From an uncultured Clostridia bacterium (GTDB taxonomy: Bacteria > Bacillota > Clostridia > Oscillospirales > Acutalibacteraceae), in NCBI GenBank assembly GCA_937875885.1, contig CALEIO010000053.1, forward strand, positions 1-11,328: 11,328 nucleotides of DNA, read 5' to 3'. The notes below the pieces were generated by a model that did no database searches, was not told the DNA's origin, and saw only the letters and a program-made list of their open reading frames with translations. A program made the position numbers and the translations under genes. Shown piece after piece: positions 1-11,328 of the stretch (the stretch's first letter is position 1; each line of letters opens with the position of its first letter).

Positions 1-2032
1 CATACTTCTGAACAGTTGTTGCGTCCTTAACGTTAACAACACCATTAAGGTCTGCGTCACCATAGAGGTAATCAATTACTACGGGAGGCTCTGTGGGCTC
101 TGTAGTAGAAGGCTCTGTGGGCACTTCAGGCTGCTGTGCGCCTGCAATGTAAGGTGCGATGCTAAGGTCATCTGTCTGTATACCATTGCCGTTGTTGAAG
201 ATAACCTTATTGGGATAATCGGGAATGATAGCTGTGTATGTACCATCGGCTTCTTTTGTCATTGCCATACCGGGCCAAGTAACCACTTCGCCACCGATAT
301 CATTCCATGCATAAATATTTACATTGGACCAGTTCTGGTCGTTGTTGTACTTAATCTTGTATGCGCCAACAGCAATGCCGCCCTCTGCAACCGCATATTC
401 TGCAGTTTTAAGCTCGCATGTACCGTTATTAACAAAGAACATCATCTTTGAGAACATTGTGGAAACCTGTGCGGTGAATGTGCCGTCAGCATTCTTTGTC
501 ATTTCAACATTTGCTGTTGAAACCTGATCATCTGCACCATAGAGGTGAACTTTTACAGAAGCAGCATTCTGTGCAAGAGCAGATACATCAACTGTAACAG
601 CTACTTTTTCGTAAAGGTCTGCAGCATCCTTGTAATCAGGGTTAGCTGCAACCTCTGCGCCTGTGTAATCTACAAGGTATGTGTAGAGGGGAAGAATTCT
701 GTTCTTAACCATATCTGTACCGTTGATTACAGTAGCATCTGCATAAACGTCAACAAAATAGCCCTGTGCGCTGTCTGCCTTTGCCTCATATACAAGGCCT
801 GTGTTTTCAGCATTTACTGTTGTAGAGGATGCTGTTGAGGGAACGTGAACTGTGTAAGCTGTTTTACCGTTCTCGTTATCAATATTGTAGTTATACTTGA
901 AGTCGATGTGTGTGTGGCCATTGAACCAAACGATATTCTTGTTAGCCTCAAGGAGTTCCTTGAATCTGTAAGTCTGGGGATACTTATTCTGGTCAATAGT
1001 CATTGCTGCGCCATAGTAAGGAGTTTCCTTATCGTCGCCTGCACCATAACCTGCGAAGGGAGCGTGCTCATAGATGAACACTTTCTTGCCGTCGTTCTTA
1101 TACTTGTTGAGAAGACCCTCAAGCCAGTCCATCTGAGCCTTTGAGAAGTTATCGGAAATACCGGGGTGTGCGCCGTTATTAACAAGCTCAAGAGAGAGGT
1201 AGATGTGGTGGTCGCCGTTGGGAGCTGTTACCTCATAGTAAATCTCTGACTGCATCTTATCTGTTCCTGCATTAAGACCTGTTGCAATCATAAAGCGATC
1301 CATATACATAGTGTGCTGAGCACTGGGAATAGGTTCTTTAGTATAGTCTTCGTGGTTACCTGTTACTTCGTAAACAGGACCTGTGAAGTTGGAGTTTGCA
1401 ATAGTTTTAAGGTATGCATTCCACTCTTTAAGGTCACCGTAGTTTGTCTGGTCACCGCAAGTAGAGATAAATTCTGCATCTCTCTCTGCAGCTGCATTAA
1501 GAGCGCTCATAAAGTGAGACTCTGCATATTTATATCCCGCGTAGTTATCTTTGTGGAAGTGGATATCAGAAAGAGTCTGGAAGTTGTACTCTACATCAGA
1601 TGCAGAATAACCAAACTGCTTTGCTTCAGGGATATCATACACTGCAGCAGCATCTGCTACTGTCTTTGCAGCAGGCTCTGTATTGCTCTTGATAGCAATA
1701 ATCTTTGTTGCACCTGCGGGAATTGCTGTGAACTCTAAAAGATTTACACTCTTTCTGGCACTGTTGAGATTAACCGCAGAAATCTCTGCATATCCGTCAA
1801 GAGCCTTTGTGTCATCTGCCCAGTAAAGGTAGTATGTTCCGTAATCAGCAGAAGAGCCTGTAAGCTCAATTCTACCCTCGGCGTAACCTGCATTCAGATA
1901 CTTGTAGCTGTAGTTAAGCGCAAGTGCATCTGCAGCAGAAACACCTGCAATACCAACCATAGCCACAGACAGAAGCATTGTCACAACCAGAAGAATTGAC
2001 ATAAGTCTTCTGAAGTTTTTTGTCTGTTTCAT
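1..2032 (-). CDS. Secreted calcineurin-like metallophosphoesterase with CBM26-like modules and dockerin (C-terminus cut by window edge)
   Basis: The reading frame is open from the ATG at 2032 to the window edge (677 codons). AAGGAGG lies 7 nt upstream of the ATG. A signal peptide (about residues 1-33: Lys/Arg start, hydrophobic core, GVSA-ADA cleavage region) marks export. A beta-rich N-terminal region precedes the phosphoesterase domain, whose metal-binding motifs are all present in order: D156-I-H158, G193-D194, G225-N-H227-E-D, H323 (EHAPF) and G372-H373-T-H375. Two related modules of about 80 residues follow (about 476-553 and 556-633). The second matches starch-binding CBM26 (NW at 567-568, WPG at 586-588). 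A Pro/Thr/Glu linker leads to the first calcium repeat of a type I dockerin (GDADLNG at 658-664, then VKDATTVQKY), where the window ends. The protein should hydrolyse a phosphoester outside the cell while docked to a cohesin scaffold and possibly bound to starch. The substrate cannot be read from sequence. The family and dockerin calls are firm; starch binding is likely, not proven. Confidence 0.93.
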   Translation of the reverse strand, partial: MKQTKNFRRLMSILLVVTMLLSVAMVGIAGVSAADALALNYSYKYLNAGYAEGRIELTGSSADYGTYYLYWADDTKALDGYAEISAVNLNSARKSVNLLEFTAIPAGATKIIAIKSNTEPAAKTVADAAAVYDIPEAKQFGYSASDVEYNFQTLSDIHFHKDNYAGYKYAESHFMSALNAAAERDAEFISTCGDQTNYGDLKEWNAYLKTIANSNFTGPVYEVTGNHEDYTKEPIPSAQHTMYMDRFMIATGLNAGTDKMQSEIYYEVTAPNGDHHIYLSLELVNNGAHPGISDNFSKAQMDWLEGLLNKYKNDGKKVFIYEHAPFAGYGAGDDKETPYYGAAMTIDQNKYPQTYRFKELLEANKNIVWFNGHTHIDFKYNYNIDNENGKTAYTVHVPSTASSTTVNAENTGLVYEAKADSAQGYFVDVYADATVINGTDMVKNRILPLYTYLVDYTGAEVAANPDYKDAADLYEKVAVTVDVSALAQNAASVKVHLYGADDQVSTANVEMTKNADGTFTAQVSTMFSKMMFFVNNGTCELKTAEYAVAEGGIAVGAYKIKYNNDQNWSNVNIYAWNDIGGEVVTWPGMAMTKEADGTYTAIIPDYPNKVIFNNGNGIQTDDLSIAPYIAGAQQPEVPTEPSTTEPTEPPVVIDYLYGDADLNGVVNVKDATTVQKY
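140..607 (-). repeat. Tandem pair of about 80-residue CBM26-like modules within the phosphoesterase gene
   Basis: Two consecutive stretches of the protein align with an offset of 80 residues. M511 in copy 1 and M591 in copy 2 sit in MTKNADGTFTA and MTKEADGTYTA, and both are followed by a hydrophobic strand and an NNG turn. Copy 2 keeps the CBM26-type NW and WPG tryptophans. Copy 1 has neither, so it is probably a structural or degenerate copy. Module edges are approximate, and the repeat is clear only at protein level. Confidence 0.6.
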
Positions 2033-2049
2033 TATTTTTCCTCCTTACC

Positions 2050-2069
2050 CTGACACAGTCTGTGTGCAG
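2050..2069 (-). promoter_or_regulatory. Small inverted repeat in the 5' leader of the phosphoesterase gene
   Basis: On the minus strand CTG-C-ACACA-GAC-TGTGT-CAG can fold into an 8-bp stem with one bulged C and a 3-nt loop, ending just before the AAGGAGG ribosome binding site. It could stabilise the mRNA 5' end or modulate ribosome access. It is short and may be chance. Confidence 0.3.
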
Positions 2070-2087
2070 AGATTATTTTACATATAT

Positions 2088-2116
2088 AATATATCAAAAA
2101 ACACCTGTTTTTTCAA
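2088..2116 (-). promoter_or_regulatory. Putative sigma-A promoter for the phosphoesterase gene
   Basis: Read on the minus strand: TTGAAA (2116-2111), a 17-nt spacer, then TATATT (2093-2088), followed by a leader of about 50 nt to the ATG at 2032. It lies in the 105-bp gap after the YfhO stop at 2138, so the phosphoesterase gene is probably transcribed on its own. The region is AT-rich, which raises the chance of a false match. Confidence 0.5.
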
Positions 2117-2137
2117 TTAACAAAATAGATATATTTA

Positions 2138-4924
2138 TCACTCTGTATATGTGCAGTTTTGCTCTACATCAATTTCTTCATTCACAACATCTTCACAAGT
2201 GTTGGACATAATACTTCGCTTCTTTGCAGAAATCACAAGCAAAGCAGCACAAAGCAGAACGCCCACGCAGGAAACAACTATGCCTGCATATATACCCGGA
2301 GTTGTGAATCTGAACTCAATTTCGTGCTCTCCCTGTGAAAGCTCAAGTGCAATAAATGTATCGTGAACGGGTTTGATTTCCACCTCTTCACCGTCCACAT
2401 AGGCTTTCCATCCATCGGTATAAAGCACAGAAGTATAGAACAGACCGCTTTCATCAGCCTTTACCGTTCCTTTAAGACCTCTGTCTGTCCACCTGGTAAG
2501 CTCCATTGTGTTTTTCCTGAGGATCTCCACACCCTGCTCCATAACATCCTCGTTAAGTTTTACAAGCTTATAGATGATGTTATTATTCTTGCCGTACTCT
2601 GCAGACATTTCTGCCTTAATCTTATCACCTTTTTCAAAGTGTCCGAGGGCAACAAGGTTTGTATAGTTCTGCTCAATTTTACGGGAATTGTCTTCATCGG
2701 AATTGATAATTACTGTTGCTTCCTTTATGGTGTTTGTTTTGAATATACCATAGTAATTTCCCGCTTCTTCAATCTCGTACTCAACCCACAGGGGTGTACC
2801 CTCTTTTTCATCAGAAGCTTCATCCTGTGTGGATTCGGGAGCTTTTACATCGGTAATGTTATAGTTGTAGAAATGAGGCATACTGTCTTTAGCCACAAGT
2901 TTATCCTCAAATTCTACATGCACCTCTGACAGGGGATCAACTTCTGTCAGCACATCTGCATCAAGACCTGTAACCCTGCTGAACCACTGATTCTGCACAG
3001 CACCGGGGAATGTCCAGCCTTCGGTCTTTGTGTAATCCTCAAGAAGCTCTGTGCTTGTCATAAAGCCCATAGGAACATAATATTTATTCTCGTACACAGC
3101 GCACTCATCAGCAGTTGCTATAAGATTCATACTCTCTGCATCATAGAGAGGCTGATCTTCGCGGGAAATCAGATATCTGATATTAAGTAAAAGATTTTCT
3201 ACGGGAGTGCCCTCAATATATGCATAGCGGTTATTTCCCTTTGATGCTGCAAGACCTAAATCTTTGAGCACATCTGCATAGGAGCTGTCAACCATAGAGT
3301 TGAAAGTGCTGATTCCGTAAAATGAATACAATGCACCGTCATTGAGAGTATATGTATCAGTGAACTCTGTGCGGAAAATCTCATCTTTTTCCTTTGCACC
3401 AATAACCTCCAGAAGTTCAGAAACAGCTTCGGAGTTTTTGGGGTAATCATCAAGAGCAGATCTGCCTACTGTGCGCACAGCAAAGTTTGCGCTGAGACCC
3501 ATCTCACCTATAACAAAAAGGCACAGAATAATTGTAAGTACCTTGTATGTAATTTTTCTCTTTCTGTAAAGAATAAAGCCCAAAAGGATAACTACTGCAC
3601 CTGCAAAGGTAATTGCAACAGAAAGCTTCTTCTGAAACACAAATGCCGCTGCAAGATAAACACCCAGCAAACCACAGGATGCAATGAATGTTTTCTTTCC
3701 GAAACTATCAATAAGAGTAAAGGCTCTGTAAGCCATCACAATCACAGCAAAGGAGAAAATAAAGCTCCAGCGATAATAAACCATTGCGGGAGTATTCATT
3801 CCGTGCCAGATATAGTTAAGCTGATTTACAACAAAACTCAAAAGGAAGAACACACAAAGGCTTCCGCTTACAATCTTCTCTTTGAGACTTATCTTCTTTG
3901 TAACGAAATAGAAAGGAATCAGCACAAGTGCAAGTACACCGCATGCAATATTGGGCAGACCCTTGTCCATTGTAATGGGTCTTGTGTATGCCAACATATT
4001 CGTTGCAGTTCTTGCAATTGCAAGTAAAGTGTTAATAATATTGTTGTCTGCATATCCGTAGCCGTAGTTGATGGTATATTCCAGAGGGAATCCGCTTGTA
4101 TCGGCAGAAGAATCGGATGCATTAAGGCAAAGGAACGCAGGTACGGTTACCGCTGCAGTAATCATCAAAGCAACTGCTGTGCAACCCAGCATTTTGCCTG
4201 CATTTTTGATGCTTTCTTTCAGATTCACAAAGCTTACGATAGTGTAGCAGACAGAAACAATAAACACAAACAAGCACACCATATATCCAATATAAAAACT
4301 GAACATTACGGAAAGTGCCAGAGATATAATGTAAAGTCCGAATCTCTTGTTTTTCAGAACATCAATAACGCCTGCAATCACTAAAGGCAACATAGCAAAT
4401 GCATCTAGCCACATCATATTCCAGTAATATCCCAGCACAAATGCACACAGGGCATACATCACCGAGAATACGGAAATTGACAGGTCATTTCTGCCAAACA
4501 CCTTGCGCAGGAAAACGGCAAAGAACATACCCGCACAGCCGATTCTGAACAATACAGTAAAGGCAAGAAATGCCTGCAGCCAGGGTGTTCCTGTGGGAAC
4601 AAAAGCCGAAAGCATATACAAGGGGCTGGCAAGGTAATTTGCAATTACTCCCACAAAACTAGAGCCGCCACCTGTATTCCAGGAATACATAATCGACTGT
4701 CCTTCCTTGAGCATCTGCTGATACTCCAAAAGAAAAGGATAGTACTGATGCCATGCGTCTGAAACCAGAATCATTTTGTTTCCAAAGGGAAAGAACTCTC
4801 TTAAAACAAAAGTAATTCCCATCAGTACAGCAGGAATCAAAAAGGCCAGAAGCACATAAAGATTGTTGCTGAAAAATCCGCGCAAACCTTTGTTGCAGGA
4901 TTTTCTGTTAACACACAAACTCAT
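2138..4924 (-). CDS. YfhO-family multi-pass membrane protein (putative GT-C type glycosyltransferase)
   Basis: A 928-residue protein when started at the ATG at 4924, which has AGGAGG 6 nt upstream. The frame stays open to 5005, but that extension overlaps the promoter and has no ribosome binding site. A short N-terminal tail is followed by a first membrane segment (about 22-41) and the conserved extracellular signature of the family: S-D56-A-W-H-Q-Y-Y-P-F, then a G-x-x-x-MYSWNTGGG-type segment and ASPLYML. About a dozen hydrophobic segments fill the first half. A large extracellular region follows, ending in the typical G838-W-KAYVDGEEV ... GEHEIEF motif, one last membrane helix (about 877-900) and an acidic cytoplasmic tail. 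Bacillus YfhO is linked to glycosylation of lipoteichoic acid or other surface polymers, and Asp56 is the likely GT-C catalytic Asp. The acceptor and sugar here are unknown. The family call is firm; enzymatic function is inferred from the family. Confidence 0.92.
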   Translation of the reverse strand: MSLCVNRKSCNKGLRGFFSNNLYVLLAFLIPAVLMGITFVLREFFPFGNKMILVSDAWHQYYPFLLEYQQMLKEGQSIMYSWNTGGGSSFVGVIANYLASPLYMLSAFVPTGTPWLQAFLAFTVLFRIGCAGMFFAVFLRKVFGRNDLSISVFSVMYALCAFVLGYYWNMMWLDAFAMLPLVIAGVIDVLKNKRFGLYIISLALSVMFSFYIGYMVCLFVFIVSVCYTIVSFVNLKESIKNAGKMLGCTAVALMITAAVTVPAFLCLNASDSSADTSGFPLEYTINYGYGYADNNIINTLLAIARTATNMLAYTRPITMDKGLPNIACGVLALVLIPFYFVTKKISLKEKIVSGSLCVFFLLSFVVNQLNYIWHGMNTPAMVYYRWSFIFSFAVIVMAYRAFTLIDSFGKKTFIASCGLLGVYLAAAFVFQKKLSVAITFAGAVVILLGFILYRKRKITYKVLTIILCLFVIGEMGLSANFAVRTVGRSALDDYPKNSEAVSELLEVIGAKEKDEIFRTEFTDTYTLNDGALYSFYGISTFNSMVDSSYADVLKDLGLAASKGNNRYAYIEGTPVENLLLNIRYLISREDQPLYDAESMNLIATADECAVYENKYYVPMGFMTSTELLEDYTKTEGWTFPGAVQNQWFSRVTGLDADVLTEVDPLSEVHVEFEDKLVAKDSMPHFYNYNITDVKAPESTQDEASDEKEGTPLWVEYEIEEAGNYYGIFKTNTIKEATVIINSDEDNSRKIEQNYTNLVALGHFEKGDKIKAEMSAEYGKNNNIIYKLVKLNEDVMEQGVEILRKNTMELTRWTDRGLKGTVKADESGLFYTSVLYTDGWKAYVDGEEVEIKPVHDTFIALELSQGEHEIEFRFTTPGIYAGIVVSCVGVLLCAALLVISAKKRSIMSNTCEDVVNEEIDVEQNCTYTE

Positions 4925-4942
4925 CTTTTTCCTCCTATTTCC

Positions 4943-4961
4943 GTACTCTTCATAAGAGCAC
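4943..4961 (-). promoter_or_regulatory. Leader hairpin upstream of the YfhO ribosome binding site
   Basis: On the minus strand GTGCTCTT-ATG-AAGAGTAC can form an 8-bp stem (one G-U pair) with a 3-nt loop, between the predicted transcription start (about 4970) and AGGAGG (4936-4931). The position suggests a 5'-end stabilising or translation-modulating stem. It is too short to be sure. Confidence 0.3.
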
Positions 4962-4976
4962 AATATTTCATTATAC

Positions 4977-5005
4977 ATTATATCTGAGCACAACATAAAA
5001 GTCAA
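4977..5005 (-). promoter_or_regulatory. Sigma-A promoter for the YfhO-family gene
   Basis: Read on the minus strand: TTGACT (5005-5000), a 17-nt spacer, and a perfect TATAAT (4982-4977). The predicted start of transcription near 4970 supports translation from 4924 and rules out the longer open frame starting at 5005. Confidence 0.75.
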
Positions 5006-5036
5006 AGAAATATATCATAATATATCAATGTTTATA

Positions 5037-5064
5037 TTGAACTTGATACACAAAATGGTATAAT
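5037..5064 (+). promoter_or_regulatory. Sigma-A promoter for the aminopeptidase-esterase pair
   Basis: TTGAAC (5037-5042), a 16-nt spacer and a perfect TATAAT (5059-5064) preceded by TGG, giving an extended -10 element. The start codon at 5119 lies about 48 nt downstream of the expected transcription start. This promoter is divergent from the YfhO promoter, with only about 30 bp between their -35 boxes, so one regulator could influence both. Confidence 0.65.
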
Positions 5065-5118
5065 AATATCAACCGCAATAATTGCTTGATATCCTAAAAA
5101 AACACAAGGAGAATAAAT

Positions 5119-6345
5119 ATGAAAAAAACCATACTGCGTGACTATGCAAAACTTCTTGCCCGCAAGGGTGTAAATGTACAGAAAGGCCAGGAGGTAATCA
5201 TCGTTGCCGAGCTTGACCAGCCTGACTTTGTCAGAATACTTGCCGAGGAATGCTACCGTGCAGGTGCAGGCAAGGTAACTGTTGAATGGAATTATCAGCC
5301 CTTAAGAAAGCTCGACGTAAGATACCAGAAAGAAAAGACCCTTTCAAAGGTAGAAAACTGGGAGATTGAGAAAATCAAGCACAGAGTAGAAACTCTTCCT
5401 GCCATCATCTACCTCGAAAGTGAAGATCCCGATGGCCTTAAAGGCATCAACCAGAAGAAGATGGCAAAATGCCTTGGCATCCGCCGAGGTGTTTTCAAGC
5501 CTTACAGAGATGAAATGGACAATAAGTATCAGTGGTGCATTGCCGCTGTTGCAGGCAAAGCCTGGGCAAAAAAGGTATTCCCCAACGAGCGTACTTCTGT
5601 AGCAACCGAAAAGCTCTGGGAGGCTATTCTTTACACTTCAAGAGCACAGGGTGACGGCATCAGAAACTGGGAAGAGCACAACGCTGACCTTAAAAACAGA
5701 TATGAATACCTCAACTCTCTGGAAATCACAGAGCTCCACTACACAAGCGCTAACGGCACAGACCTGACTGTAGGTCTGCTTCCTCAGGGCAGATTTATGG
5801 GCGGCAGCGACCTTCTTCTGGGCAGTGATGTTGAATACAACGCAAACATTCCCTCCGAGGAAGTGTTCACCTCCCCCGACCGCAATCGTGCAGAGGGTGT
5901 TGTCTATGCTTCAATGCCCCTCTCCTATCAGGGTGCTCTGATTGAAAACTTTTACTTTGTAATCAAGGATGGCAAAATCACAGAAGCTCATGCAGAAAAG
6001 GGCGAAGAGCTCCTCAACTCTATTCTGGACACAGACGAGGGTGCGCGCTACCTTGGCGAATGTGCTCTTGTACCCTACGACTCTCCCATCCGCAACAGCG
6101 GAATCCTTTTTTACAACACTCTTTTTGATGAAAATGCAGCTTGCCACCTGGCATTCGGCGAGGGATTCAGCTCCTGTGTGAAGGATTACGAAAAATACAC
6201 TCTGGACGAAATCAGAGAAATGGGCATCAACAACAGCATTGTTCACGTAGATTTTATGATTGGCACTGCTGACCTGTCCATTACAGCAAAAACAGCATCT
6301 GGCAAAGAAATCGCCATTTTCAAAGATGGCAACTGGGCATTTTAA
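5119..6345 (+). CDS. M29-family metal-dependent aminopeptidase (AmpS/AmpT type)
   Basis: A 408-residue protein, the usual length for peptidase family M29. AAGGAG lies 7 nt before the ATG. There is no signal peptide, so it acts in the cytoplasm, removing N-terminal residues from peptides with two divalent metals, usually zinc or cobalt. Family metal-site motifs are visible: IPSEEVFTSP (244-252, ligand Glu probably E248), GECALVPY (E314), ACHLAFGEG (H343) and the C-terminal signature H376-V-D378-F-M-I-G. The N-terminal half has the family start (LRDYAKLLARKGVNVQKGQ). The gene is first in a pair: the dockerin esterase begins 27 nt after its stop with no terminator between. Family members often have broad specificity, so the role is probably general peptide turnover. 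Nothing looks broken or unusual. Confidence 0.95.
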   Translation: MKKTILRDYAKLLARKGVNVQKGQEVIIVAELDQPDFVRILAEECYRAGAGKVTVEWNYQPLRKLDVRYQKEKTLSKVENWEIEKIKHRVETLPAIIYLESEDPDGLKGINQKKMAKCLGIRRGVFKPYRDEMDNKYQWCIAAVAGKAWAKKVFPNERTSVATEKLWEAILYTSRAQGDGIRNWEEHNADLKNRYEYLNSLEITELHYTSANGTDLTVGLLPQGRFMGGSDLLLGSDVEYNANIPSEEVFTSPDRNRAEGVVYASMPLSYQGALIENFYFVIKDGKITEAHAEKGEELLNSILDTDEGARYLGECALVPYDSPIRNSGILFYNTLFDENAACHLAFGEGFSSCVKDYEKYTLDEIREMGINNSIVHVDFMIGTADLSITAKTASGKEIAIFKDGNWAF

Positions 6346-6372
6346 TCTGCACTCTTTCAGCGGAGGATTCTT

Positions 6373-7404
6373 ATGAAAAAACTTAAATCCTTAATCTGCA
6401 TAATTCTTGCAGCAACGATTATGCTCCCGGGATGTTTTGCAACATCTGCAGCAGATCCCCAGGTGCAAAAAATCAATTTTGCCGTACTGGGTGACTCCAT
6501 CGCATCCGGCTACGGACTCAAGCAGACTCTTGATTGCTACGCTGCTCTTATTGCAAAAGAAAATTCCTACCACCTTACAAATGACGCTGTGCCCGGACAC
6601 ACCACAGAAAATCTCCTGTGGGTAATCTGTCAAAGTGAAAATGCAAAAAACAGCATCAGAAATGCTGACGTTATCTCTATATCCATCAGCGGCAATGACT
6701 TTTTGAATATGATTGGTAAAGCCGACACATCCACTTTGCTGGATATTATGCTAAACGGAGCAAATGCCAAGGTAGCTGTTGAGCTTAAAGAAAAGCTCGA
6801 ATACAACCTGAATGCTGTATGCACCGAGTTACGTCTGCTGAATGAAGATGCTCCCATTATTTTCCAGACACAGTACAACTCCCTTTATGCTCACAAGGAC
6901 TACAGCGCCTACGCTTCCCTGGCAGAAAAGTTTGTGCCCATACTCAACGGCACTCTGGAGTCACTCACAGACAAATTCCGTGGTATTTTTATCGCAGACG
7001 TTTACTCTGCATTCGACAACTACTACAAAACCACAGGCAACTACGATATCATCCAGGCAGACGGAATTCACCCCTCCGAGTCAGGTCACCGGCTTATTGC
7101 TCAGGTAATTCTTGAGAAAATAACCCAGCTGGAAGATATGGGACTTATCCCCAAGGCTGCAAGTCTTTATTACCTTCTCGGTGATGCAGACGGCAACGGA
7201 AGAATCAGCGTTGCCGATGCAACCATTATCCAGAAGATTCTTGCAGGTTTTCTGTCCTTTGCAGGGGATATCGCAACCCTCTGCCTTGATGCCGACGAAA
7301 ACGGCGACGTAAACATCAAGGATGCCACATCCATTCAAAAACATCTAGTAGAGCTTGAAGCTAATCCCAACATCGGCAACTATCTGCCTTTCTATGATTA
7401 TTGA
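6373..7404 (+). CDS. Exported SGNH/GDSL-family esterase with C-terminal type I dockerin
   Basis: A 343-residue protein; GGAGG lies 6 nt before the ATG. The N-terminus (Lys-rich start, hydrophobic core, LPGC at 18-21, then SAADPQ) is an export signal. LPGC could be a lipobox, but Pro is atypical there, and a signal peptidase I cut after about residue 26 is equally possible. The SGNH hydrolase blocks are all present: G40-D41-S42 (nucleophile), G75, S-G107-N108-D109, and D230-G-I-H233-P (catalytic Asp/His). After a short linker come two calcium-binding dockerin repeats, D271-A-D-G-N-G (271-292) and D306-A-D-E-N-G (306-325), each with the conserved D-A-T-x-I-Q-K helix. It is therefore complete and should bind a cohesin outside the cell. 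Probable substrates are acyl or acetyl esters of polysaccharides; this is family inference. It is co-transcribed with the M29 aminopeptidase. Confidence 0.93.
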   Translation: MKKLKSLICIILAATIMLPGCFATSAADPQVQKINFAVLGDSIASGYGLKQTLDCYAALIAKENSYHLTNDAVPGHTTENLLWVICQSENAKNSIRNADVISISISGNDFLNMIGKADTSTLLDIMLNGANAKVAVELKEKLEYNLNAVCTELRLLNEDAPIIFQTQYNSLYAHKDYSAYASLAEKFVPILNGTLESLTDKFRGIFIADVYSAFDNYYKTTGNYDIIQADGIHPSESGHRLIAQVILEKITQLEDMGLIPKAASLYYLLGDADGNGRISVADATIIQKILAGFLSFAGDIATLCLDADENGDVNIKDATSIQKHLVELEANPNIGNYLPFYDY

Positions 7405-7414
7405 TGCATAACAA

Positions 7415-7446
7415 AAAGCACCGTCAACCAAACGTGACGGTGCTTT
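7415..7446. terminator. Bidirectional rho-independent terminator
   Basis: AAAGCACCGTCA (7415-7426) pairs perfectly with TGACGGTGCTTT (7435-7446) around an 8-nt loop. A T-rich run follows on the plus strand (7444-7454), and the A-run at 7413-7417 gives a T-run on the minus strand. It lies between the convergent esterase and AEC transporter genes and should stop transcription from both. Confidence 0.93.
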
Positions 7447-7474
7447 ATTTTTTGTGTTATACAATTTGCTTCCC

Positions 7475-8407
7475 TTAAAGCAGCAGAAGCATCAAAGGCA
7501 TTGTGGCAATACTTGTTATTGTACCGAGCAATACACAGCCGGAGGCTTCCTCCTGACCCTGTCCGCCTATCTCTGCAAAGTTCAGCACATTGCTTGCTAC
7601 GGGACAGCAGAAGAGCACAAAACTCAGTTGCTTCAAGAACAAATCAACGGGCAGAAAATAAACCGCACCGAAAACCACAAGAGGAATAATCATCTGCTTT
7701 GCCACCACAGCTACATACTGCACAGGCTTTAAGAATACTTTGCTAAAACTTGTGGATGCAAGTCGCATACCGAGGATTGTCATACAAAGGGGTGTTGAGA
7801 TTTTTCCGCCCAAAGACGCTGCTTCTGCAAAAATTCCCGGAAGTTTCAATGAAAAAATAAACATCACAAAACTTACCGCAAAAGAAACAGTAGCAGGATT
7901 CACCAAAAGCTGTCTGAGTGTAATATATCGCTTATCACGGGTTACAATATAAAGCACCATAGTCCAGCACAGAAGATTCATTGCAAGGGTAAACATAAGG
8001 CACAAAGCCGCTGCATCGCTACGCTGCGGAAAAAGTCGCTCTACTACGGGAATGCCAAAGAATCCGCAGTTACCCAGTACCATTGCAATATTAACAATTC
8101 TGAACCTTACATTCTCCACGCTTCTTTTTCTGAAGATAAAATAAAACAACAGCAAAAAGCCCGCCTGGCTTATGAATGCTATAAGAAAAAACAAACCCAG
8201 ATTCACAAGCAACTCACCTGAATAATCCGCTTTATCAAAAGAATAAAAGGTAAGGCAGGGCTGGCAGACATACAAAAGCATCTTTGCAAAAGCAGGAATC
8301 ACCTTTGAATCCACAAGCTTTGACTTTACCATAAGGAATCCGGGCACCGCATACAACAGCAGAAGTGCCACAGAAGAAACTGTAGTTGTAAATATCACTT
8401 TAATCAC
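7475..8407 (-). CDS. AEC (auxin efflux carrier) family transporter
   Basis: A 310-residue, highly hydrophobic protein with about ten membrane segments, the usual length of the family. Characteristic motifs are G112-N-C-G-F-F-G-I-P120, where membrane helices break around Gly-Asn, V-N170-P-A-T-V-S-F, and a C-terminal CPVASN...SIATMPL segment. Family members export or exchange small organic acids such as malate or lactate, or auxin-like compounds; the substrate here is unknown. Two GTG starts compete. The one at 8407 gives 310 residues but has no good ribosome binding site. The one at 8398 (307 residues) has GGTGAT (8408-8403) 4 nt upstream and suits the promoter better. No partner gene is linked: a terminator lies downstream and an oppositely oriented regulator upstream. 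Confidence 0.9.
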   Translation of the reverse strand: MIKVIFTTTVSSVALLLLYAVPGFLMVKSKLVDSKVIPAFAKMLLYVCQPCLTFYSFDKADYSGELLVNLGLFFLIAFISQAGFLLLFYFIFRKRSVENVRFRIVNIAMVLGNCGFFGIPVVERLFPQRSDAAALCLMFTLAMNLLCWTMVLYIVTRDKRYITLRQLLVNPATVSFAVSFVMFIFSLKLPGIFAEAASLGGKISTPLCMTILGMRLASTSFSKVFLKPVQYVAVVAKQMIIPLVVFGAVYFLPVDLFLKQLSFVLFCCPVASNVLNFAEIGGQGQEEASGCVLLGTITSIATMPLMLLLL

Positions 8408-8415
8408 CGTTAGTT

Positions 8416-8444
8416 ATTGTAGCACAAAAACCTTGCAGAAACAA
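8416..8444 (-). promoter_or_regulatory. Putative promoter for the AEC transporter
   Basis: On the minus strand TTGTTT (8444-8439), a 17-nt spacer, and TACAAT (8421-8416) preceded by TGC, an extended -10. Transcription would start near 8409, leaving almost no leader, which favours the GTG at 8398 as start codon. The -35 match is weak. Confidence 0.5.
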
Positions 8445-8548
8445 TAAAAAAGGGAGTGTAATTTCAGGAAAAACGTGATATAATTAATGTTATAAAAATT
8501 TTTCAGGATTTTTCAACCGCCTGCTTCACCTCCCGTTCCAAAGTGGGC

Positions 8549-8577
8549 TTGACAGACTTTCCTTCCTATGTTATACT
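8549..8577 (+). promoter_or_regulatory. Strong sigma-A promoter for the HTH regulator
   Basis: Perfect TTGACA (8549-8554), a 17-nt spacer, and TATACT (8572-8577). The expected start is near 8584, about 30 nt before the regulator's ATG. The -10 box lies inside an inverted repeat (8561-8609), which suggests repressor control. A weaker extended -10 (TGATATAAT, 8476-8484) lies upstream without a convincing -35. Confidence 0.8.
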
Positions 8578-8609
8578 ATATACAACTAAAGATTTATAGT
8601 ATAGGAAGG
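8561..8609. promoter_or_regulatory. Nested inverted repeat across the HTH regulator promoter and RBS (candidate operator)
   Basis: CCTTCCTAT (8561-8569) is the exact reverse complement of ATAGGAAGG (8601-8609), and TATACTATA (8572-8580) is the exact reverse complement of TATAGTATA (8595-8603). The two pairs have almost the same centre (about 8585 and 8587.5). The left arms cover the promoter spacer and -10; the right arm contains the AGGAAGG ribosome binding site. The left arm lies mostly upstream of the expected transcription start, so this is better read as a DNA operator for autoregulation than as an RNA hairpin. Binding by the adjacent regulator is inferred. Confidence 0.5.
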
Positions 8610-8615
8610 TGTACT

Positions 8616-8828
8616 ATGGCAGTAAGTTATAAAAAGCTCTGGAAGCTTCTAATCGAAAAGGATATGAAGAAAACCGACTTGCGTATCAAAGCCGGCATCT
8701 CAACCGGTGCTCTCGCAAAGCTCGGCAAGAACGAGAACGTTAATACCGAAATTCTCGCCAAAATATGCAAAGTTCTCGAATGCGGCGTTGACGATGTAAT
8801 GGAATTCATTCCGGAAGATAAGGAGTAA
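8616..8828 (+). CDS. Small XRE/Cro-C1-type HTH transcriptional regulator (HTH_26-like)
   Basis: A 70-residue protein started at the ATG at 8616, with AGGAAGG 6 nt upstream. The frame is open back to 8568, but that extension would include the promoter -10, so it is rejected. Nearly the whole protein is one five-helix Cro/C1-type fold. The HTH core runs about 17-40 (MKKTDLRIKAGIS, then turn and recognition helix TGALAKLGKNE), followed by NVNTEILAKICKVLECGVDDVMEF, typical of this family of short Firmicute regulators. There is no ligand or dimer extension. It probably represses its own promoter through the palindrome just upstream. Its stop overlaps the ribosome binding site region of the next gene (AAGGAG 8820-8825), so the two are translationally linked. 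Its targets beyond itself are unknown. Confidence 0.85.
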   Translation: MAVSYKKLWKLLIEKDMKKTDLRIKAGISTGALAKLGKNENVNTEILAKICKVLECGVDDVMEFIPEDKE

Positions 8829-8833
8829 TAGAT

Positions 8834-10030
8834 ATGATTATCGCAATCATTATTCTAAGTATCCTGCTAGCTGGCGCAGTCGCCTTTATTTTTTGGCTAT
8901 TGCAGGTACTGAAAAATACCTATGAAATAGTTGAAAATGCTATGGATATGGCGCTTGGCAGAGGCGGTGACCAGGTGGTTATCCGAAACAAAGGTAAATT
9001 CAGCTACTTTGGCGGAAATTCCAAGGAAACGGAAAAGCGTACAAAGGTTAAGGCCCGCATTATGGCAAGTAACCTTAGGGAGCTTATGGAGGCATCGGAC
9101 AATGTACTCATTATGGGGCACAGAAACAGTGATGCTGATGCAATAGGTGCGGCAATAGGTATCGCAAGTATGGCAAGCCATATTAAAAAAGAGGCAAAGG
9201 TGCTTCTTTTGACAAAGGACGATACGGTGCAGCTTCTCCTTAAAAAGATTGAGGAAAATCATTACCACGACGGTATGTTTATAGGAAAGCAGGGACTTCG
9301 TGATTTTATTACGCCTAAGACCTTGCTTGTAATATGTGATACGCATATCCCCGAATATACAGAAATGCCTGAACTTATTGATTCTATAAAGACTAAGGTA
9401 GTAATAGATCACCACAGAAGAAGCGAGAGCTTTATTGATGATGCAGATATTATTTATCATGAACCTTTTGCATCATCGACGTGTGAAATGGTGGCTGAGA
9501 TTATGCAGTATTTCGGGCATCATTATGCCGTATCTACTGTTGATGCAGAGGCACTCTATTCAGGAATAGCGGTAGATACAAAGAACTTTACATTTAAAAC
9601 GGGTGTGAGAACATTTGAAGCTGCCGCATATTTAAGGGCGGCAGGCGTTGATACTATCCGTGTTAAGAAGCTTTTCAGGGATTCAATAGATAACTATAAG
9701 CTTAAGGCGCAAATAGTAACAGAGGCGCAGGTATACAGTAACAATATTGCGATTTCACTCTTTTCGGGTGTTGTACCGCACCTTGTTATTGCAGAGGCTG
9801 CCGATGAAATGCTTGAAATAACAGATATCAAGGCGGCATTTGTAGTGGCACGCGGTGAAAACGGAAATGTTGTCATAAGCGGAAGGTCGCTTGGCGAGGT
9901 TAATGTTCAGGTAGTTTTAGAAAAGCTTGGCGGCGGCGGTCATATGATGGTTGCAGGTGCACAGATAGAGCAAAGCTCCGTTTTTGATGCGGGCGAAATG
10001 CTCAAAAAGGCAATTGACGAAATACTGTAA
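8834..10030 (+). CDS. gdpP: GdpP-like c-di-AMP phosphodiesterase (DHH/DHHA1), lacking PAS and most of GGDEF
   Basis: A 398-residue protein; AAGGAG lies 8 nt before the ATG. GdpP proteins usually have about 650 residues: two membrane helices, PAS, degenerate GGDEF, DHH and DHHA1. Here one hydrophobic helix (1-26) is followed at once by the tail of the degenerate GGDEF (MDMALGRGGDQ, 37-47). The DHH catalytic part is intact: G95-H96-R-N-S-D100-A-D102, D169 (CDTH), D192-H193-H194 and D248 (AVDTKNF). DHHA1 ends with GGGGHMMVAG (367-376). The enzyme would hydrolyse c-di-AMP, but heme or nucleotide sensing by PAS/GGDEF is missing. Codon use differs sharply between the first 26 codons and the rest, so the N-terminus may have been joined artificially. 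The downstream order rplI, dnaB fits gdpP. The identity of the DHH part is firm; whether this exact protein exists is uncertain. Confidence 0.85.
   Translation: MIIAIIILSILLAGAVAFIFWLLQVLKNTYEIVENAMDMALGRGGDQVVIRNKGKFSYFGGNSKETEKRTKVKARIMASNLRELMEASDNVLIMGHRNSDADAIGAAIGIASMASHIKKEAKVLLLTKDDTVQLLLKKIEENHYHDGMFIGKQGLRDFITPKTLLVICDTHIPEYTEMPELIDSIKTKVVIDHHRRSESFIDDADIIYHEPFASSTCEMVAEIMQYFGHHYAVSTVDAEALYSGIAVDTKNFTFKTGVRTFEAAAYLRAAGVDTIRVKKLFRDSIDNYKLKAQIVTEAQVYSNNIAISLFSGVVPHLVIAEAADEMLEITDIKAAFVVARGENGNVVISGRSLGEVNVQVVLEKLGGGGHMMVAGAQIEQSSVFDAGEMLKKAIDEIL
8900..8945. other. Possible sequence junction inside the GdpP-like gene
   Basis: The protein passes here from an unplaced membrane helix to GdpP GGDEF-tail sequence. 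Within the gene, CTA codes Leu three times in the first 22 codons and never afterwards. ATA (Ile) first appears at codon 32 and then 14 times in all, and GCG (Ala) and ACG (Thr) are frequent only downstream. This fits a deletion, a recombination or an assembly join. Confidence 0.4.
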
Positions 10031-10047
10031 GGAAAGGAAGATATAAT

Positions 10048-10494
10048 ATGAAGGTTGTACTTTTGACAGATGTAAAGGGTCACGGCAAAAAGGGTGACGT
10101 GGTTGAGGCGAGTGACGGTTATGCGAGAAATTTTCTGCTTCCTAAAAAAATGGCAGAAATTGCAACGGCTGATGTGCTTAACAATATAAAAGGAAAGAAT
10201 GAAGCTGCCGCTTATCATAAGCAGCAGGAGATTGAGGCAGCAAAGGAAACTGCAAAAAGTCTTGAGGGTGCAAAGGTTGTGCTCACTGGAAAAGCAGGCG
10301 AGGGCGGAAAGCTCTTTGGTAAAATTACCAATCAGAATGTAGCAGATGCGATAAAGTATCAGCTTCATCACGTTATTGACAAGCGTAAGATTGTACTTCC
10401 CGACGGTATAAAGACCATCGGTGAAAAGGATGTTGAGCTTAAGATTTACCCCGAAATTTCAGCTAAGATAAAAGTAGTTGTAAACCCCGAATAA
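10048..10494 (+). CDS. rplI: 50S ribosomal protein L9
   Basis: A 148-residue protein, the standard length of bacterial L9. AAGGAAAGGAAG (10029-10040) lies before the ATG and overlaps the gdpP stop codon; the gap between the genes is 17 nt. The N-terminal domain carries the L9 signature (G-KKGDVVEASDGYARNFLLPKK, about 13-34). A long connecting helix rich in Ala/Glu/Lys (about 42-75) follows, then the C-terminal RNA-binding domain with GKLFGKIT (about 87-94) and an ending KIKVVVNPE. L9 binds 23S rRNA near the L1 stalk base and helps keep the reading frame. The gene is complete and is the best guide to native codon choice of this right-hand block (GGT, ATA and GCG common). Confidence 0.97.
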   Translation: MKVVLLTDVKGHGKKGDVVEASDGYARNFLLPKKMAEIATADVLNNIKGKNEAAAYHKQQEIEAAKETAKSLEGAKVVLTGKAGEGGKLFGKITNQNVADAIKYQLHHVIDKRKIVLPDGIKTIGEKDVELKIYPEISAKIKVVVNPE

Positions 10495-10515
10495 TATAGA
10501 AATACGGTGATATAA

Positions 10516-11328
10516 ATGGATATTCCGATTGGAAGAACTATGCCATATAATCTTGAGGCAGAGGCGGCAATCCTCGGTAATATGATACTTGACGAAAAGG
10601 CGCTTGTTATGGCTATGGACAAGCTTGACGAGGAATGTTTTTACGCAACTGCAAATAAGACGATATTTATAGCGATAAGCCATCTTTTTGAAGAGGGTAT
10701 CCCCGTTGATATGGTTACTCTTTCAGAAAGACTTGGCGATAAGCTTGACAGTGTGGGCGGAATTGCCTACATAACAAAAATTGCACAGAGTGTTTTTACA
10801 AAGGAAAATCTTGCACAGTATATAAAGATTGCGCAGGAGAAAAAGATGCTTCGAAACCTTATCGAGTCTGCAAGTCAGATTATGGATATGGGTATGAAGG
10901 ATGAGGAAACGGCTGCCGATATTATTGATAAGAGTGAGCAGCTTATATTCAGAATATCGGAGCAGAGAGGAACTAAGGGCTTTACTCATATTGGTGAGGT
11001 TGTAAAAACTAACCTTGCAATGCTTGACGAGCTTAAAAAGCGTGGCGGTAAGGTTACGGGTATTAAAACGGGATTTACGGGGCTTGATGCCTCTACGGCA
11101 GGACTTCAGAACAGTGACCTTATAATCCTTGCGGCACGTCCCGGTGTCGGTAAAACGAGTATTGCGCAATCTATCGCGCGCGCACTCGGTCGTAAATTTG
11201 TGCGTATGAGCCTTGGTGGCGTGAAGGACGAGGCGGAAATTCGCGGACATCGTCGCACCTATATCGGGTCTATGCCTGGGCGCATTTTGTATGCGATGAA
11301 GACGGCTGGCAGTATCAATCCCGTCGTT
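10516..11328 (+). CDS. dnaB: Replicative DNA helicase DnaB, N-terminal two-thirds, running in frame into LonA sequence (chimeric, open at window edge)
   Basis: 271 codons to the window edge. GGTGAT (10506-10511) lies 4 nt before the ATG as an unusual ribosome binding site; the rplI stop is 21 nt upstream. Residues 1 to about 209 are ordinary DnaB: the [15 protein letters not shown] start, the N-terminal helical domain with [10 protein letters not shown], the linker helix, and the start of the RecA-like domain ([29 protein letters not shown]). At the Walker A motif (ARPGVGKTS, 207-215) DnaB would continue with a FAxNIA-type segment and later the SLEM motif. Instead residues 216-271 read as LonA. 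DnaB should unwind DNA at the fork as a hexamer; this version could not, because Walker B and the DNA-binding loops are replaced. All seven Arg codons after the join are CGC/CGT, while four of seven before it are AGA. Most likely an assembly chimera; a true fusion is not excluded. Confidence 0.85.
11161..11328 (+). other. lon: LonA protease AAA+ fragment fused after the DnaB Walker A
   Basis: The 56 residues encoded here contain the segment that follows Walker A in Lon[21 protein letters not shown], then [18 protein letters not shown] and a [11 protein letters not shown] stretch leading to the Walker B region just past the window end. This order and wording are specific to LonA and unlike DnaB. 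There is no start codon, no N-terminal substrate domain and no protease domain in view. G+C over these 168 bases is about 55 percent (my hand count), against about 38 percent over 10921-11040 and about 52 percent over 11041-11160. Confidence 0.88.

Follow-up and report, generated by a model that had tools for sequence, protein, structure and literature searches.

The question raised by this locus is whether a single open reading frame, which begins as the helicase DnaB and ends as the protease LonA, encodes a genuine fusion protein or reflects the artificial joining of two genes. The frame occupies positions 10516-11328 (+ strand) of the window, that is, the whole stretch of DNA analysed (11,328 nucleotides of contig CALEIO010000053.1, from an uncultured Clostridia bacterium). 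It runs for 271 codons without a stop and leaves the window at its end. Based on the comparisons described below, the contig is almost certainly an assembly chimera, in which the dnaB gene of one Clostridia species is joined to the lon gene of another. The apparent DnaB-Lon fusion is very probably an artefact and does not represent a new protein. The relevant features are collected in Table 1.

Table 1. Features of the window that bear on the origin of the DnaB-Lon frame
Feature	Position	Strand	Evidence
YfhO	2138-5005		
Start of chimeric frame, about 33-38 residues ahead of the gdpP part	8834..8947	+	8850-8933 matches L003 at chance
3' part of gdpP-type gene (GGDEF end, DHH, DHHA1), in the segment of dnaB	8948..10030	+	PF01368, PF02272, PF24898 positions 94-123
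rplI (ribosomal protein L9), in the segment of dnaB	10048..10494	+	TIGR00158
5' part of dnaB, residues 1-215, ends at P-loop	10516..11160	+	215/215 residues as in intact DnaB P0001; PF00772
P-loop stretch PGVGKTS common to both genes, site of the join	11140..11160	+	R208 (DnaB-specific) before, I216 (Lon-specific) after
lonA piece, residues 216-271, evidently of another Clostridia lineage, leaves window	11161..11328	+	TIGR00763; up to 52/55 residues as in other lons

DnaB accounts for the opening part of the frame. The N-terminal domain (PF00772) is found at residues 9-107 with an E value of 1.9e-26, and the NCBIfam model for DnaB, TIGR00665, spans residues 9-224. The helicase domain is cut short: residues 182-224 correspond to positions 1-43 only of the 255 in the PF03796 (DnaB_C) profile, whereas P0001, an intact DnaB of 441 amino acids, covers that profile completely (positions 1-255). 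The frame therefore resembles the DnaB family (TIGR00665; PF00772 plus PF03796) in its residues 1-215, which are those of P0001, and in having rplI and a gdpP-type gene upstream as in the related loci L001-L003, but it differs in having no helicase domain past the P-loop.

The rest of the frame belongs with LonA (endopeptidase La). Pfam places an AAA domain at residues 203-270, and TIGR00763 matches residues 199-271 to positions 352-424 of its 795 (E 1.2e-34), so that a Lon-type AAA+ module follows the Walker A motif, with the start of the module alone present. A 14-residue Lon signature begins at residue 243. An earlier note, made from the nucleotide sequence without database searches, had read residues 216-271 as LonA, and these matches bear that reading out. 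The Lon substrate-binding domain (PF02190), present in the comparison Lon proteins P0126 and P0241, had no Pfam match in the 271 residues, and the frame thus differs from LonA in lacking this domain ahead of the AAA+ module. The Lon lid and protease domains (PF22667, PF05362) are not visible because the window ends 56 codons past the join. Composition also changes across the join. AGA accounts for four of seven arginine codons upstream and none of seven downstream, exactly as the earlier note had counted. The GC content of the last 168 nt is 0.548. Overlapping 168-nt segments taken from eight coding frames of the contig average 0.434, and 13 of the 3019 segments are equally high; third-position GC, for which the corresponding number is 225 of 3019, is weaker evidence.

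The position of the switch can be defined rather closely. The DnaB part had been described as typical over residues 1-209, which is correct in kind but slightly short in extent, since identity to P0001 reaches residue 215. Divergence is immediate from residue 216, with the next 13 residues of the window standing against FALNIAQNAAIRE in P0001. Lon proteins align with the frame from residue 209 onward. The DnaB and Lon alignments overlap in the seven residues PGVGKTS (residues 209-215), and the proposal that the switch occurs in frame within a shared Walker A motif is thereby confirmed. Because any crossover point within these 21 nt yields an identical protein, the join can be resolved at the protein level to residues 209-215 only. 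At the DNA level, the 30-nt bins starting at 11121, 11151 and 11181 match the dnaB of the closest genome (G003, see below) at 29, 21 and 3 positions, respectively, and match L016, a lon locus of another lineage, at 17, 26 and 23 positions.

On the DnaB side, there is an intact twin. Besides P0001, there is the dnaB gene of G003, the closest genome found, a goat-rectum MAG (isolate RGIG2984) whose DNA is 94% identical to the window over 8934-11000 and 95% identical over 10999-11167. The G003 gene continues through the join position as a normal DnaB; its first piece (residues 1-161) agrees with P0001 at 160 of 161 residues, and its second piece of 280 amino acids agrees at 278 of 280 with residues 162-441. 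The order gdpP-type gene, rplI, dnaB is the same in L001, L002 and L003. The best explanation is that a single Clostridia species supplied the dnaB segment, the species being that of P0001 and closely related to RGIG2984. The G003 dnaB is itself divided between two contigs (L003 3565 and L088 1), which meet at about window position 11000 and not at the P-loop.

The Lon side has a different affinity. In each of the three closest genomes (G001, G002 and G003), lon stands on its own as a frame of about 800 codons, and the products of these frames match 36 of the 55 residues past the join. Other Clostridia and database Lon proteins match up to 52 of the 55, a value reached by P0124 and P0126. Across the family of G003, in which 21 genomes were searched, Lon proteins are 53-66% identical to the piece in the window. 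In a tree of 89 rows and 55 columns, the Lon proteins of G001-G003 split from the other 86 rows, the window among them, with 100/100 support; the inner placement is unsettled because the columns are so few. The lon piece evidently does not belong to the family that supplied the dnaB segment and derives from another Clostridia lineage. On either side of the join the sequence corresponds to an intact gene, and the two lineages differ. The best DNA match to the lon piece is 83%, and the exact donor DNA was not found among the sequences compared. A join of dnaB to the lon gene of its own species was also considered and rejected, since Lon proteins of the family are 53-66% identical to the piece and those of G001-G003 agree with it at 36 of 55 residues.

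The upstream part of the contig provides a second discontinuity. The DNA matches of L001, L002 and L003 all start at window position 8934, though these loci extend further upstream. At this site the three loci encode a full-length GdpP-type protein, in open frames of 682, 682 and 688 codons, respectively. The GGDEF_GdpP domain (PF24898) is represented by positions 1-123 in L003, versus only positions 94-123 in the window frame at 8834-10030. The window agrees with L003 at 19 of 84 positions over 8850-8933, which is the chance level, and at 9 of 13 over 8934-8946; the first long exact run, of 41 nt, covers 8948-8988. A second join of the same kind is thus likely at about 8934-8948, beyond which the frame continues as the 3' portion of a gdpP-type gene. 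Taken with the first join, the sequence comparisons indicate that the segment from about 8934 to 11160 (2.2 kb) is an island of one species between sequence of other origin.

The origin of the remaining upstream sequence can be addressed less directly. The opening residues (about 33-38) of the frame at 8834 had no match in loci L093 to L128, and a 67-aa query found none in 151 genomes sampled from a larger group, an empty result that carries no weight by itself; the start of a sensor-kinase-like membrane protein is a conceivable candidate for these residues. YfhO (2138-5005) gave no match in 6 genomes, a result that says little, as it had no positive control. The region 4901-8933 had no DNA match in four close genomes, and the M29 aminopeptidase encoded at 5119-6345 had none in the 21 genomes of G003's family. 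This aminopeptidase did find matches in 158 of 391 genomes sampled from the larger class, the best four being G372 (58%), G255 (57%), G215 (55%) and G338 (55%). All four also belong to the family sampled, again from a larger group, around G004, a relative of the lon tail of the window. The gene for a helix-turn-helix (HTH) protein at 8568-8828 has its best DNA matches in the family of G372 (73-75%, in a sample from a larger group), but it also matches G015, one genome of G003's own family, at 71%, so that the contig does not divide cleanly between families. Window positions 1-8933 may come from a species other than that of dnaB. One family may account for the outer parts of the contig and another for the middle 2.2 kb, a reading that is only suggestive because the matches are distant and the HTH gene matches both families.

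A simple model accounts for these observations. The dnaB segment would have been joined to the lon gene of another species at the PGVGKTS stretch encoded by both genes, and the event would have taken place in the assembly (or in a read or library fragment that was itself chimeric), not inside a cell. The earlier note had favoured just such a metagenome misjoin through a shared Walker A sequence, and that explanation now finds support in the P0001 twin, the normal DnaB of G003, the foreign affinity of the lon piece and the second join. Since the reading frame over the shared stretch is the same in dnaB and lon, no selection is needed to explain why frame is kept across the join. If graph paths of different species crossed at shared words, two in-frame joins flanking a 2.2-kb segment could result. 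The window presumably ends where the contig ends, in which case the lon tail of 168 nt would be about one read long. PMC8171044 describes nodes of de Bruijn graphs in metagenome assembly that consist of a nucleotide stretch shared by two species; two paths enter and two leave such a node, and chimeric contigs arise when it is left unpartitioned. The likeness to the present case lies in the use of a stretch common to two species as the crossing point; the difference is that the species in that description are evolutionarily similar, whereas here the stretch occurs in two gene families that share a P-loop.

The length of the shared sequence is a weak point of a mechanism based on the assembly graph. 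Assemblers usually use words of about 21 nt or more. The longest word common in register to relatives' dnaB (n=3) and lon (n=73) genes is 12 nt, these being relatives and not the true parents, and the longest word common to the window up to 11162 and the lon genes of relatives (n=73) is 17 nt; both are shorter than the usual assembly word. The common word of the true parents could be about 22 nt (11139-11160), if both used the codons found in the window.

The alternative that survives best is recombination in a cell, in which a foreign Clostridia lon fragment replaced the 3' half of a copy of dnaB and left the gene hybrid or broken, with an intact dnaB elsewhere in the genome. The open frame across the join is compatible with such an event, and the relatives of both parts are from Clostridia, many of them animal-gut MAGs (among the best 80 of 445 loci). 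In addition, relatives of the M29 gene and of the lon tail occur within a single family, so that taxonomy alone leaves room for one host of that family that acquired the 2.2-kb middle segment. However, DnaB is an essential protein, and the exchange would have cut it at a seven-residue motif; a second such event would be needed near 8934-8948; and the arrangement is seen in none of the relatives searched. We consider cellular recombination very unlikely, and the assembly chimera remains the preferred explanation.

The search for a real fusion covered both genomes and proteins. Within the 21 genomes of G003's family, dnaB was found in 18 and a separate lon in 19, and a fused DnaB-Lon frame in none. 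The relatives' loci were the best 80 of 445 confirmed loci, drawn from at least 592 stretches; across 92 loci, 13 frames had a DnaB part, 78 had a Lon part and none had both, and a 33-nt sequence spanning the join was absent from all 92. A scan of viral contigs for 39 nt spanning the join found nothing. The protein searches covered about 5.8 billion sequences, with up to 8000 candidates scored and the best 120 listed in each. The 358 proteins among the matches listed comprise 120 with a DnaB part and 238 with a Lon part, and none has both, a negative that applies to those lists and does not extend to nature at large. A full-length fusion would have escaped the first protein search on account of its length rule, and a 624-aa model of the complete fusion was therefore searched as well. 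Its top score of 893 bits belonged to a plain Lon fragment with 68% coverage, and among the best 120 listed the highest coverage was 76% (a Lon) and PF00772 occurred in none. The same fusion, which the earlier note had wished to see sought in independent genomes, is thus absent from the family genomes, loci and listed proteins alike. Titles and abstract openings retrieved for a DnaB-Lon protease fusion contained no precedent, and the matches concern RadA.

A genuine fusion protein, in which the N-terminal domain and linker of DnaB would drive a Lon-type AAA+ ring and protease, is therefore extremely unlikely: the frame does run through the join and family models match both parts well, but the lack of a fused frame in the relatives searched and of any listed protein with both parts, even with the full-length model, speaks strongly against it, the Lon piece stops at the window end with no lid or protease domain seen, and the identical DnaB front part occurs in the intact P0001. 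It is just as hard to credit a strain with a real hybrid (the DnaB N-terminal domain, linker and P-loop followed by a foreign LonA AAA+ module and perhaps its protease) beside an intact dnaB, although such a protein, if true, would be a helicase-protease hybrid.

The practical value of the assembly-chimera reading is its indication that conserved P-loops or similar words can yield in-frame gene fusions in metagenome contigs that are convincing but false; two such joins seem to be present here. Other fusion candidates can be checked in a simple way, by looking for an intact full-length twin of one half that is identical exactly up to the join.

Two further genes lie in the upstream part of the window. 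Pfam matches identify a GDSL esterase with a dockerin domain at 6373-7404. The frame at 2-2032, which leaves the window at its start, encodes a calcineurin-like phosphoesterase that carries a CBM26 module of the starch-binding type.
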